Origin: Clostridiaceae bacterium
Lineage (GTDB): Bacteria > Bacillota > Clostridia > CAYPLH01 > DUMO01
Assembly: GCA_012839865.1 (NCBI GenBank)
Contig: DUMO01000019.1
Location: 62,001-126,000 of the forward strand
Length of the DNA stretch: 64,000 nucleotides
Direction of reading: 5' to 3'
The position numbers and the translations under genes were made by a program. Each line of letters starts with the position of its first letter. Position 1 is the stretch's first letter. Below, one piece after another: positions 3,899-7,955 of the stretch. Under the pieces are notes generated by a model. The model did no database searches. It was not told the origin of the DNA and saw nothing but the letters and a program-made list of their open reading frames with translations.

Positions 3899-5260
3899 AT
3901 GGCTACCGGAAAAAATTGCTTTAAATTCTGTGTTGCCCAGGAAATTATCACTCCGCCAAAATCCATGTTCCCGCTGGAACTGAAAGGATTTGCCGCAAGG
4001 CAGGGCCTTTGCAGCGAAGTTTATGATGACATTTATGCAAAGGTTGTATTGCTCAGTGGAGCCAAGGACTTGCTTCTTGTGGTGCTGGACCTGACAATGG
4101 TAAATACCGAAGCCTGCCAGCAGATAAAATCAAAGATAATGGCCAAATACCCGTTATCAGAGGAGCAGATCTGGGTTACAGCCACACATACCCATTCTTC
4201 CATCGGACTTACATCAAGTGTGGAAGGATATCAGGATTATGCCTATGACAAGATAATGAAAGCTGTCGATAAATGCTATGCAAGCCTGGAATCCGGCAGT
4301 ATATACTTTGCAAAAGGTATTTCAAATGTAGGAATCAGCAGAAGACTTAAAACCCCTGACGGCAAAATAAAGTTTGCTCCAAGCTGGGACAATGAAATAG
4401 ATAAGGAAATGTTTATTCTAAAGCTTGAAGATTCAGACAACAATATTAAGTGCATTATATACAATCTCCCATGCCACGGCACGGCTTTAGGACCTTTAAG
4501 CCTTAAAATGTGCAACGACTTTATGGGTTTTGCAAATAAATATGTATCCGAAAGATTCAACGGGGCTGTTTCTATTTATCTTCCCGCCAATGGCGCTGAC
4601 GTCAAGCCAAAGGGAAGCGCAAGGAGAGATCCGGGCGGCGACTTTATGAAAGACAGTTTTATCACATGCACAATTGAGGAAACTGACAGCATTGGAAAAA
4701 GCGTGGCTGATGAAATAACAGATATTATCAACAACGGTAAGTTCTTGAAAGTAGATCCTGATTTCCGCACAAGTTACCAGGATGTTTATTTGTTCGGACC
4801 AAAACCGGATATAAAGGATGCAGAGGAAAAATTCAATGTATTTAAGATAAGACACGATGAAGAATTAAGCAAGAATGGCGAAGTCTCACACATGACGAAT
4901 TACTCCTACAACCGTTTTAAGAGGCATCTGGACAGACTGACATCAGGTGAATACAATGCAACGATACAGGTGCCCTTTGCAGAATGGTATTTGGGTAACG
5001 ATGTGAAGTTAATAGCTATAGCCTGTGAGCCTTCAAGCCAGTTGGGGCTTATGATTAAAAACATATTTAAAGACGACAAAACAATGATTATAGGATACAC
5101 CAATGGGATTATTGGCTATATATGCAACTCGGTACAGCATCTTGAGGGCGGCTATGAAGCTGAGTCCCTTATTAACCGTGGTCTTGCAGGACCTCTTCCT
5201 CCGGAAACTGACAGTGTTATCTGCAATGCGGTAAAAGCACTGCATTTTGATTTGAAATAG
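3899..5260 (+). CDS. Neutral/alkaline non-lysosomal ceramidase N-terminal domain protein
   Basis: 453 residues matching the N-terminal (catalytic) domain of neutral ceramidases, zinc amidases that hydrolyse the N-acyl bond of ceramide. The sequence shows the zinc-site motif THTHSSIGL (two His of the HxH type), a later His in LPCHGTALG, and the NGADVKPKG segment. It is much shorter than classical ceramidases (about 650-750 residues) and lacks their C-terminal immunoglobulin-like domain. No signal peptide is visible, so it is probably cytoplasmic, and ceramide is unlikely to be its real substrate. The start has AAAGGTGAG just upstream. It shares an apparent operon with the PatB-like gene, behind the AraC-type regulator. 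Assignment to the family is firm; the substrate is unknown. Confidence 0.78.
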   Translation: MATGKNCFKFCVAQEIITPPKSMFPLELKGFAARQGLCSEVYDDIYAKVVLLSGAKDLLLVVLDLTMVNTEACQQIKSKIMAKYPLSEEQIWVTATHTHSSIGLTSSVEGYQDYAYDKIMKAVDKCYASLESGSIYFAKGISNVGISRRLKTPDGKIKFAPSWDNEIDKEMFILKLEDSDNNIKCIIYNLPCHGTALGPLSLKMCNDFMGFANKYVSERFNGAVSIYLPANGADVKPKGSARRDPGGDFMKDSFITCTIEETDSIGKSVADEITDIINNGKFLKVDPDFRTSYQDVYLFGPKPDIKDAEEKFNVFKIRHDEELSKNGEVSHMTNYSYNRFKRHLDRLTSGEYNATIQVPFAEWYLGNDVKLIAIACEPSSQLGLMIKNIFKDDKTMIIGYTNGIIGYICNSVQHLEGGYEAESLINRGLAGPLPPETDSVICNAVKALHFDLK

Positions 5261-5521: not shown

Positions 5522-6076
5522 TCATACAGCCAATATGTACTCGGAAACCTTTGTATATATCCGTTTATTGTTTATTTGTTCGCTTTTGTATAAATAAATC
5601 CTGTCCACTTTTCCAATTTTATAATCCTTCACCCGGGATTGAAATTCCTTAAGGTCAAAATCCTCCTTAAAGACGATATCCTGTCCAATGGTTACATGGG
5701 GCCTGTATTCTCTCTTTTCTTTCGGAAATCCGATTTTATCAAGTTCCCGGTCTATTTCCTTTTGCAGGGACCGGAGTTTTTCCATTTCACCGGCAATACC
5801 TAGCCAAAGGACCCGGACATAATCTTTCCCGCTGAAGGTGCCAAGGCCGGATAATTTCAGATTGAAGGGTTCTTTTTGGGCACATACTTCCTTCATTATT
5901 TTATTTATCTCATTTTGCTGATAGGAATCTATTTCATTAAGAAACTTAAGGGTAAGATGGAAGTTGTCAACATACTTCCATCTTCCTTTGATTGCAAAGC
6001 TTTTAAGCCTTTGTTGAAGCGTTGATATTTCGTTTTTTAGATTATTATCGAAATCTATTCCAATAAAAGCTCTAAT
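5522..6076 (-). CDS. thpR: RNA 2',3'-cyclic phosphodiesterase ThpR (2'-5' RNA ligase family) with apparent ATT start
   Basis: A two-histidine (2H) phosphoesterase of the ThpR/LigT family. The reading frame continues upstream of the first ATG (5896) without a stop for 60 codons and encodes the family N-terminus (RAFIGIDF...), including the first catalytic HxT motif HLTL (residues 40-43). The second, HVTI, is near residues 127-130. Both motifs are required, so the gene must start near 6076 and gives about 184 residues, the normal family length. At the expected initiator position the codon is ATT (6076-6074), preceded at 9 bases by AAAGGA. An in-frame TGA lies just upstream, with only a CTG between. 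Either a rare ATT (or CTG) start is used, or the start codon has been lost by mutation. The role in bacteria is RNA end processing and is poorly defined. Confidence 0.8.
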   Translation of the reverse strand: MRAFIGIDFDNNLKNEISTLQQRLKSFAIKGRWKYVDNFHLTLKFLNEIDSYQQNEINKIMKEVCAQKEPFNLKLSGLGTFSGKDYVRVLWLGIAGEMEKLRSLQKEIDRELDKIGFPKEKREYRPHVTIGQDIVFKEDFDLKEFQSRVKDYKIGKVDRIYLYKSEQINNKRIYTKVSEYILAV

Positions 6077-6199
6077 TTCCCTCAGTCCTTTTCAAACAAT
6101 CTTAATGTTCTTCGCAACTCAAGTCATGGGCTTTTGGCCAGGTCTTCGCAAATATCATGGTGTGATTGATATTAAGGAAATATTTCCACCTGTTGCCTG

Positions 6200-7888
6200 T
6201 TATCTTGCAACTCTTGCACGATGCAGCTTAGTCACGCTTTTTTCAGGAGCACCGCTAATCTCGTTTTGAGCGGCAACCAGCAAGGCTGCCCCATATTTCT
6301 CCCTCAGCCGTGGCTTTTCAATCTTCCCGGTTGGATTTCGGGGAACGCTGTCAAAGATAACTTTCCGGGGACGTTTATAACGCGGCAAAGAAGAGCAAAA
6401 TTCATTAATCTCCGCTTCAGTGCATGTTAATCCCGGTTTAAGTTCAATAATGGCGGCAGCTATTTCACCGACTCTTTTATCCGGAAGTCCAATTACTGCA
6501 GCATCCTTGATTGCAGGATGAGCCCTGAGAAAATCTTCTATCTGCACTGGATATATATTCTCACCACCGCTGATAATCACATCCTTTTTACGGTCAACCA
6601 GATAAATGAAACCATCATCATCCATTTGTGCCATGTCCCCTGTATACAGCCAGCCATCCTTCAATACTGCCTGGGTTGCCTCCGGGTCTTTGTAGTAGCA
6701 CTTCATGACACCCGGTCCTTTTACTATCAGTTCTCCCACCTGGCCTTTTGATACCGGACGGCCATTTTCATCCACAATCCTGGCTTCCCAATTATATCCG
6801 GGAACACCTATGGCACCGACTTTATGAATATTCTCAACCCCTAAATGCACACATCCGGGACCAATGGACTCACTCAAACCATAATTTGTATCATACAAAT
6901 GATTTGGAAAGTACTTCTTCCAGCGGCGAATCAGACTGGGAGGCACCGGCTGGGCACCGATATGCATCAGTCTCCACTGGGAAAGATTATAATCTTCAAG
7001 CCTTACTTCTCCTCTTTCAATTGCATCCAGTATATCCTGGGCCCAGGGTACCAAAAGCCATACAATGGTAATTTTTTCTTCGGATACGGTTCTTAATATC
7101 CACTCAGGCTTGACTCCCCTGAGCAGTACTGCCTTGCTTCCCGCAAGCAGGCTCCCAAACCAGTGCATTTTGGCACCGGTATGATAAAGCGGCGGAATAC
7201 ACAGGAAGTTGTCTTCACGGGTTTGTCCATGATGTTTTTGCTCGGTAATGCATGCTGTTATCAAACTACGGTGGGTATGCAATATTGCTTTGGGAAACCC
7301 TGTAGTTCCGGAGGAAAAGTATATTGCTGCATCATCATCCTCTGAAATTTCAATTTTTGGTGCTTCCGACGGGCAATTTGCCGTGAGCCGGTCATAACTT
7401 TCAGCAAACAAGGGACGGTTTTCCCCTGCAAAGAACAGCAATTTAATCTTTGGTATATTGGTATAAATCTGTTCCATACGACTTATAAATTCAGGTCCGA
7501 AAACCAAAGCCACAGTATCTGATAATTCCAGGCAATACTTTATTTCTTCTGCTGTATATCGAAAGTTCAAAGGAACGGCAATGGCACCGGTCTTAAGAAT
7601 GCCAAAATAGATTGGCAGCCATTCCAGGCAATTCATTAAAAGAATCGCAACTTTATCTCCTTTTTTTATTCCTCTTTTAATCAGGAGATTCGCAAAACGG
7701 TTTGCTTTCTCGTCGAAAACCTTCCAGGTCATGTCCCGGCGGTATTCCCCCGCAGGGTTGTTTTCGATAAGTTCATACTCCCGCCAGTTAATATTGTGGC
7801 GTTCCTGAAGATCCAGATTTATCTCGGTCAGGCATTTTTCAGACCCATACAATTTTGCATTGCGTGATAACAGATCGGTAATATTCAT
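6200..7888 (-). CDS. AMP-forming acyl-CoA synthetase (long/medium-chain fatty acid CoA ligase family)
   Basis: About 562 residues, of the ANL superfamily that activates a carboxylic acid with ATP to an acyl-adenylate and transfers it to CoA. Signature motifs in order are YFSSGTTGFPKA (AMP/P-loop), YGLSES, YTGDMA, GGENIYP and the C-terminal catalytic lysine region NPTGKIEK. The exact acyl substrate cannot be read; fatty or aryl acids are likely. Two starts are possible. ATG 7888 (MNITDLL) sits 9 bases after GGAAGG and is preferred over ATG 7897, which directly abuts that sequence. It is expressed from its own promoter at 7956-7984 and is followed by thpR on the same strand. No beta-oxidation genes are adjacent. 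Confidence 0.88.
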   Translation of the reverse strand: MNITDLLSRNAKLYGSEKCLTEINLDLQERHNINWREYELIENNPAGEYRRDMTWKVFDEKANRFANLLIKRGIKKGDKVAILLMNCLEWLPIYFGILKTGAIAVPLNFRYTAEEIKYCLELSDTVALVFGPEFISRMEQIYTNIPKIKLLFFAGENRPLFAESYDRLTANCPSEAPKIEISEDDDAAIYFSSGTTGFPKAILHTHRSLITACITEQKHHGQTREDNFLCIPPLYHTGAKMHWFGSLLAGSKAVLLRGVKPEWILRTVSEEKITIVWLLVPWAQDILDAIERGEVRLEDYNLSQWRLMHIGAQPVPPSLIRRWKKYFPNHLYDTNYGLSESIGPGCVHLGVENIHKVGAIGVPGYNWEARIVDENGRPVSKGQVGELIVKGPGVMKCYYKDPEATQAVLKDGWLYTGDMAQMDDDGFIYLVDRKKDVIISGGENIYPVQIEDFLRAHPAIKDAAVIGLPDKRVGEIAAAIIELKPGLTCTEAEINEFCSSLPRYKRPRKVIFDSVPRNPTGKIEKPRLREKYGAALLVAAQNEISGAPEKSVTKLHRARVAR

Positions 7889-7955
7889 TCCAACCATCCT
7901 TCCATTCTACAAGCAGATGTTAAAAATCCGTCCTGCATAAAAAATACTAAATAAA

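Follow-up and report, generated by a model that had tools for sequence, protein, structure and literature searches.

How is a gene translated that has no ATG, GTG or TTG at its 5' end, or is such a gene silent? This question is raised by thpR, which lies on the minus strand of a 64,000-nucleotide stretch of contig DUMO01000019.1 of a Clostridiaceae bacterium (assembly GCA_012839865.1); the whole stretch is called the window in the following. An earlier note on the same DNA had proposed initiation at an ATT codon with weak or regulated translation and, as an alternative, a start-loss mutation leaving a silent gene. We consider it likely that thpR starts at this ATT and that the weak start keeps the ThpR level low, probably under discrimination by initiation factor 3 (IF3), as for infC and for cvfC1 and ccpN of S. 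aureus. Seen directly in the sequence are the codon, the register of the Shine-Dalgarno (SD) sequence, the recurrence of the codon class in relatives and its absence from the genes coaD and dtd; from these we infer initiation at ATT and a low output, and we put forward control by IF3 as a hypothesis. The locus is made up of the following features:

5522–6076, minus strand: thpR (RNA 2',3'-cyclic phosphodiesterase / 2'-5' RNA ligase family, assigned by sequence through TIGR02258 and Pfam LigT_PEase), 184 codons plus TGA
6074–6076, minus strand: proposed initiation codon ATT at position 1 of TIGR02258 (codon as read and family alignment)
6086–6091, minus strand: SD sequence AAAGGA, 9 nucleotides (nt) 5' of ATT, register -15 (sequence and anti-SD scan)
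6083–6085, minus strand: in-frame CTG at codon -3, a rival start that abuts the SD sequence without spacer, register -6 (sequence)
6092–6094, minus strand: in-frame TGA, which bounds any upstream start (sequence)
5951–5959, minus strand: first catalytic motif HLT, codons 40–42, 5' of the first ATG (translation)
5894–5896, minus strand: first in-frame ATG, codon 61 (reading-frame list)
5690–5698, minus strand: second catalytic motif HVT (translation)

Judged by its sequence, the product is a member of the ThpR/LigT 2H phosphoesterases, as it exceeds the curated cut-off of TIGR02258 across the whole model (148.3 bits compared to 65.7, E 2.1e-43) and carries two HxT motifs; Pfam LigT_PEase matches with an E value of 3.5e-24. 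Residues 1–180 align to positions 1–178 of the 180 positions of TIGR02258, and position 1 of the model falls on residue 1, which is the ATT codon. The genome has one match to thpR at E <= 0.001. Direct reading of the minus strand, TGA(6094-6092) AAA GGA CTG AGG GAA ATT(6076-6074) AGA GCT TTT ATT GGA ... TGA(5524-5522), bears out the earlier description of an ATT at the initiator position of the family with AAAGGA 9 nt upstream and an in-frame TGA before it, and likewise the position of the first HxT motif (5959–5951) 5' of the first ATG (codon 61, 5896). The in-frame CTG at 6085–6083, three codons 5' of ATT, had no place in that reasoning and is considered below.

Apart from this CTG, the start region offers no usable codon of the common kind, and the first ATG, GTG or TTG is the ATG of codon 61, which is 65 codons past the preceding stop and beyond the first catalytic motif. 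In 42 of 43 window frames of at least 120 codons (overlaps removed), an ATG, GTG or TTG follows the preceding stop by no more than 23 codons, counted for the first frame from the edge of the window, and thpR is the sole exception. The missing start is more than chance. A start at codon 61 was rejected, as the first HxT motif would be lost.

The initiator codon among relatives of thpR

To compare the orthologous codon, relatives were collected from the class and phylum of the window, whose genome is the sole member of its order in the comparison set. Matches to thpR were found in 123 of 391 class genomes, 46 of 58 order genomes and 300 of 398 phylum genomes; at most the best 30 loci per search were read, and the counts therefore describe the nearest relatives of the window, not the whole family. 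In total, 119 loci were placed, and the removal of 16 duplicates with the same 180 nt about the start left 103 distinct loci. In the following, ATH stands for ATT, ATC or ATA (AUH for AUU, AUC or AUA) and NTG for ATG, GTG or TTG, in counts of rival starts also for CTG. The initiator position is occupied by NTG in 83 of the 103 loci (ATG 72, TTG 6, GTG 5), by ATH in 19 (ATC 9, ATA 6, ATT 4) and by GAA in one. The GAA case (L089/L027), counted as "other", has a TGA a few codons above and no in-frame ATG, GTG, TTG or CTG between; a frameshift or an assembly error is possible there.

The first batch comprises L023 and 74 distinct loci from the class of the window (window included), and 15 of these 75 have ATH at the position of the family methionine (ATC 8, ATT 4, ATA 3). 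These are distributed over 14 genomes, one of them with two copies, and five families (f1, f21, f54, f63 and f91). L024 and L025 carry the gene stretches also found in L082 and L029, two loci from the class of the window. The 14 proteins other than that of the window are 47–58% identical to its ThpR, and both HxT motifs are present in all 19 ATH loci. In three members of the group (L061, L028 and L059), the stretch from the upstream stop to the ATH codon, 16, 12 and 30 codons long, is free of in-frame ATG, GTG, TTG and CTG, and an AUH start is therefore hard to avoid in these genes. The genome with two copies, G396, holds L058 and L082 with ATT and ATC starts in different subclades, either a second copy or a mixed bin.

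The SD sequences were scored by their pairing with a generic anti-SD core, from which the actual 3' end of the 16S rRNA of the window's genome may differ, and the scan covered all 83 NTG and 19 ATH loci with SD sequences overlapping or abutting the start allowed. The mean pairing profile peaks at -15 relative to codon 1 in the 15 ATH loci of the first batch and at -13 in 59 NTG loci. Ordinary thpR starts have an SD register of -18 to -12 in 68 of 83 cases, of -11 to -9 in three and of -5 to -8 in none, and all 15 ATH loci fall inside the ordinary range, with registers of -16 to -14 from the ATH codon. Thus, the comparison of orthologous codons returned ATT, ATC or ATA together with a well-placed SD sequence at 15 distinct loci, which supports the earlier proposal of a weak or regulated ATT start. 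Folding of the start region was uninformative, the mean energy from -30 to +20 being -5.4 in the 19 ATH loci and -5.6 in NTG loci.

infC, which encodes IF3, is the classical AUU-start gene and is autoregulated. The search for it covered the 14 genomes of the ATH group as well as 16 others, and 28 of these 30 gave a match; the two without one, G418 and G397, both belong to the ATH group. Thirty loci were fetched and all but L117 placed, and seven further infC matches stand outside the counts. The start codon is ATT in 24 and ATC in 5 of the 29 placed loci, after an SD sequence of the GGAGGTG type at register -16 or -17; since these starts were chosen among ATH codons by SD register, the register is not independent evidence here. 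The infC of the window's own genome (L102) has an ATT or ATC start like the 28 others among L091–L120. At 11 of the 29 loci the SD sequence itself contains an in-frame GTG, at -3, which could mislead annotation. In the same 30 genomes, coaD starts with ATG, GTG or TTG at all 28 loci read (codons read by eye; L178 and L179, below the cut-off, left out) and dtd at all 25 placed loci (three of 28, L187, L197 and L207, were off the motif and left out).

Taken together, an AUH start codon appears to be conserved across relatives of thpR, though not universally, as it is found at 15 loci in five families and the sister gene of the window has ATG. This recurrence points to a weak start that has been kept, as in infC, rather than to a broken gene.

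Proposed weak initiation and a possible role of IF3

We propose that the AAAGGA sequence, at its normal distance, guides the ribosome to ATT 6076–6074, where initiator fMet-tRNA would decode the codon. A group of related thpR genes seems to keep AUH instead of AUG at this place, and because IF3 discriminates against AUH codons, initiation would be weak, the output of ThpR low and probably dependent on the level or activity of IF3, in analogy to infC. Here and below, published work is cited for individual passages of the respective papers. Such codons were weak in clostridial reporters, where AUU, AUA, AUC and CUG behind a single promoter-leader gave 5–20% of AUG in C. butyricum and 7–17% in C. 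sporogenes (PMC9680021), and in S. aureus, where AUU and AUA starts yielded some 10% of the AUG level when the medium was poor (PMC13009471). E. coli LigT can be lost without obvious effect, its overproduction leads to sensitivity to elevated temperature and its biological function is unknown (PMC5283653); the temperature sensitivity suggests a reason to keep ThpR low.

It is also conceivable, at a little less than an even chance, that the AUH start is real but only sets a low constant level of ThpR, with no useful IF3-dependent regulation; this is a variant of the explanation preferred here, and the probabilities of the two overlap. It is in line with the findings on E. coli LigT (PMC5283653) and with the lowered output from AUH codons in clostridia (PMC9680021). 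On the other hand, IF3 represses starts other than ATG, GTG or TTG (PMC5472188), and as this discrimination is general, some IF3 dependence is expected even for a gene of this kind.

Alternative starts and the history of the codon

A different reading assumes a shift of the start by three codons in the upstream direction, to CTG 6085 in the window and to ATG or GTG in eight relatives, so that Ile 1 would be internal and the protein three residues longer. We regard this as improbable, although several observations speak for it and thus weigh against a start at ATT. An NTG stands exactly at -3 in 9 of the 15 ATH loci (6 ATG, 2 GTG and the CTG of the window), ATG is intrinsically stronger than ATH, and in f63 an ATG-ATT/ATC-CAT string 5' of the ATH codon is retained in four of five loci. 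The ATG at -3 of L082 has an SD register of -10, a marginal value among ordinary starts. The SD sequence of the window is moderate, with -9.6 on the scale of the scan compared to -17.1 in the strongest relatives. Furthermore, two of the four remaining ATH loci (ATA or ATC), L122 and L144, are ambiguous, and an upstream start suits the other two, L143 and L124, better; Ile at this position is therefore no proof of a start by itself. The argument that only Ile is found at this position and that it must be the start was dropped, since Ile 5 and Ile 7 are about as invariant (14/15 and 15/15).

In L143 (G607) the old initiator position is ATA and an ATG at -4 has a strong SD sequence at register -14; in L124 (G769) the old position is likewise ATA and a GTG at -4 is favoured, and its congener L123 retains ATG. 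In both, an upstream shift of the thpR start within the same family is likely, in L143 more clearly than in L124. The register method can thus return the opposite answer, and for the window and its 14 companions it does not. If codon -3 were the start, the SD sequence would lie at -5 to -8 in L001, L029, L002, L069 and L065, a register found at none of the 83 ordinary starts, and L066, L068 and L032 would be left with weak SD sequences (-7.6 to -7.7) at registers of -33 to -22. Six of the 15 loci have no NTG at -3, and three of these lack an in-frame NTG all the way to the upstream stop. The rival is further weakened by infC, whose AUU start is established and which has a GTG at -3 by the same accident at 11 of 29 loci. 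In the window, the CTG is itself a near-cognate codon, and an upstream start therefore gains nothing there. The thpR family thus seems to show both routes, with the window and its 14 companions on the AUH side.

The history of the codon was followed in two trees, both without L057, which is short. Tree 1 comprises 74 rows with residue 1 masked, and tree 2 comprises 56 rows, namely the loci of at least 42% identity plus L122, L124, L143 and L144. A starred branch of tree 1 (99/95) separates all 15 ATH rows, along with 7 NTG rows, from the remainder; ATH requires a minimum of 4 changes, and none of 500 label shuffles was as good. Codon 1 varies inside well-supported subclades (ATC, ATA, ATA, ATC and ATC in f63; ATC and three ATT in f54). 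With the four outlying ATH rows added in tree 2, of which two have very long branches, the minimum is 5 changes and the bootstrap is unsettled; a single clade for the 15 ATH rows is compatible with the approximately unbiased test (p 0.08). Inheritance of the ATT of the window together with the other ATH codons is called into question by its neighbours. Its sister in both trees (L023, the same as L121), which is 56–57% identical, starts with ATG (support 97/80 in tree 2), and the window, L121 and L086, which has TTG, stand nearest to ordinary NTG genes in tree 2 (94/84, not starred). ATG and ATH have been interchanged near the window, and because of the ATG of the sister and the TTG of L086 the thpR of the window may have acquired its ATT independently, from ATG.

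The ATG of the sister gene also lends something to the alternative raised in the earlier note, a start-loss mutation that made thpR silent or left it decaying. This seems very unlikely, as the 184-codon frame is intact with both catalytic motifs and has kept 56–57% identity to the sister, the SD sequence is retained at a normal register and the same class of codon recurs in many relatives. A sequencing or assembly error at 6074–6076, to which the draft assembly of 89 contigs and again the sister's ATG might point, is less probable still, since the same codon class is found in 13 other genomes including one in a single contig (G277) and one in three contigs (G329).

The neighbourhood of thpR includes an upstream gene:

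6200–7897, minus strand: AMP-binding enzyme gene, 565 amino acids, co-directional with thpR, 123-nt gap to ATT and no stop-start overlap

Translational coupling of thpR to this gene was rejected because of the 123-nt gap. For 14 ATH loci an upstream frame was listed (mechanical frames); its distance ranges from 11 to 587 nt and it may lie on either strand, which leaves room for coupling only where the gap is as short as in L032 (11 nt). On the other side, the convergent neighbour (3899–5260, plus strand) matches the Pfam neutral/alkaline ceramidase N-terminal domain with an E value of 7.2e-12.

Known AUH starts and the meaning of the thpR case

Very few non-canonical starts have been characterised experimentally (PMC5472188). 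The earlier note had named infC as the known example of an ATT start; it is indeed an AUU gene but not the sole case, as cvfC1 (AUU) and ccpN (AUA) have been described in S. aureus (PMC13009471). infC resembles thpR in its AUH codon and in the general layout in these genomes, with an SD register of -16/-17 and the GTG at -3 in part of the loci. It differs in that it encodes the discriminating factor itself, whereas thpR would be a target and not an autoregulator, and in having ATT or ATC at every placed locus, whereas thpR has ATH in only part of the family. cvfC1 and ccpN share with thpR a conserved AUH start with a clear SD sequence outside infC, but they encode unrelated proteins and their starts were mapped by Ribo-RET and reporters (PMC13009471), whereas that of thpR is deduced from sequence; moreover, the thpR codon varies between ATT, ATC and ATA, and some close relatives have ATG or TTG instead. 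Streptomyces sigR, with its GTC start repressed by IF3, is a further case of a non-canonical start that keeps its product low through IF3 (PMC5472188), although the codon is a different one, and translation and IF3 repression are experimental for sigR and proposed for thpR. Ordinary thpR/ligT genes (TIGR02258) belong to the same family and have both HxT motifs, but start with NTG in 83 of the 103 loci read.

Conserved AUU and AUA starts outside infC were thus already known from cvfC1 and ccpN, and new here would be thpR as a case of an AUH start. Our searches of the open-licence PubMed Central literature, which were only partly aimed at thpR/LigT, found no AUH start for thpR, and the main text of the S. 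aureus study does not mention thpR, ligT or Clostridi- (PMC13009471).

For annotation, a search for ATG, GTG and TTG starts only would truncate the ThpR of the window past its first catalytic motif, and the case suggests looking for similar genes by SD register in combination with the alignment of orthologues. An AUH start that occurs in five families, in a gene without known function in E. coli, provides a handle on that function and on why ThpR might be kept low or tied to IF3. A more far-reaching idea, which we put forward tentatively and consider rather unlikely, is that a broad group of Clostridia and their relatives has kept AUH in thpR to make it a gene sensed by IF3, so that the enzyme is raised together with IF3. 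If this were true, a shortage of IF3 relative to 30S subunits or a drop in fidelity would raise ThpR, and RNA repair or turnover would be tied to the state of translation initiation.
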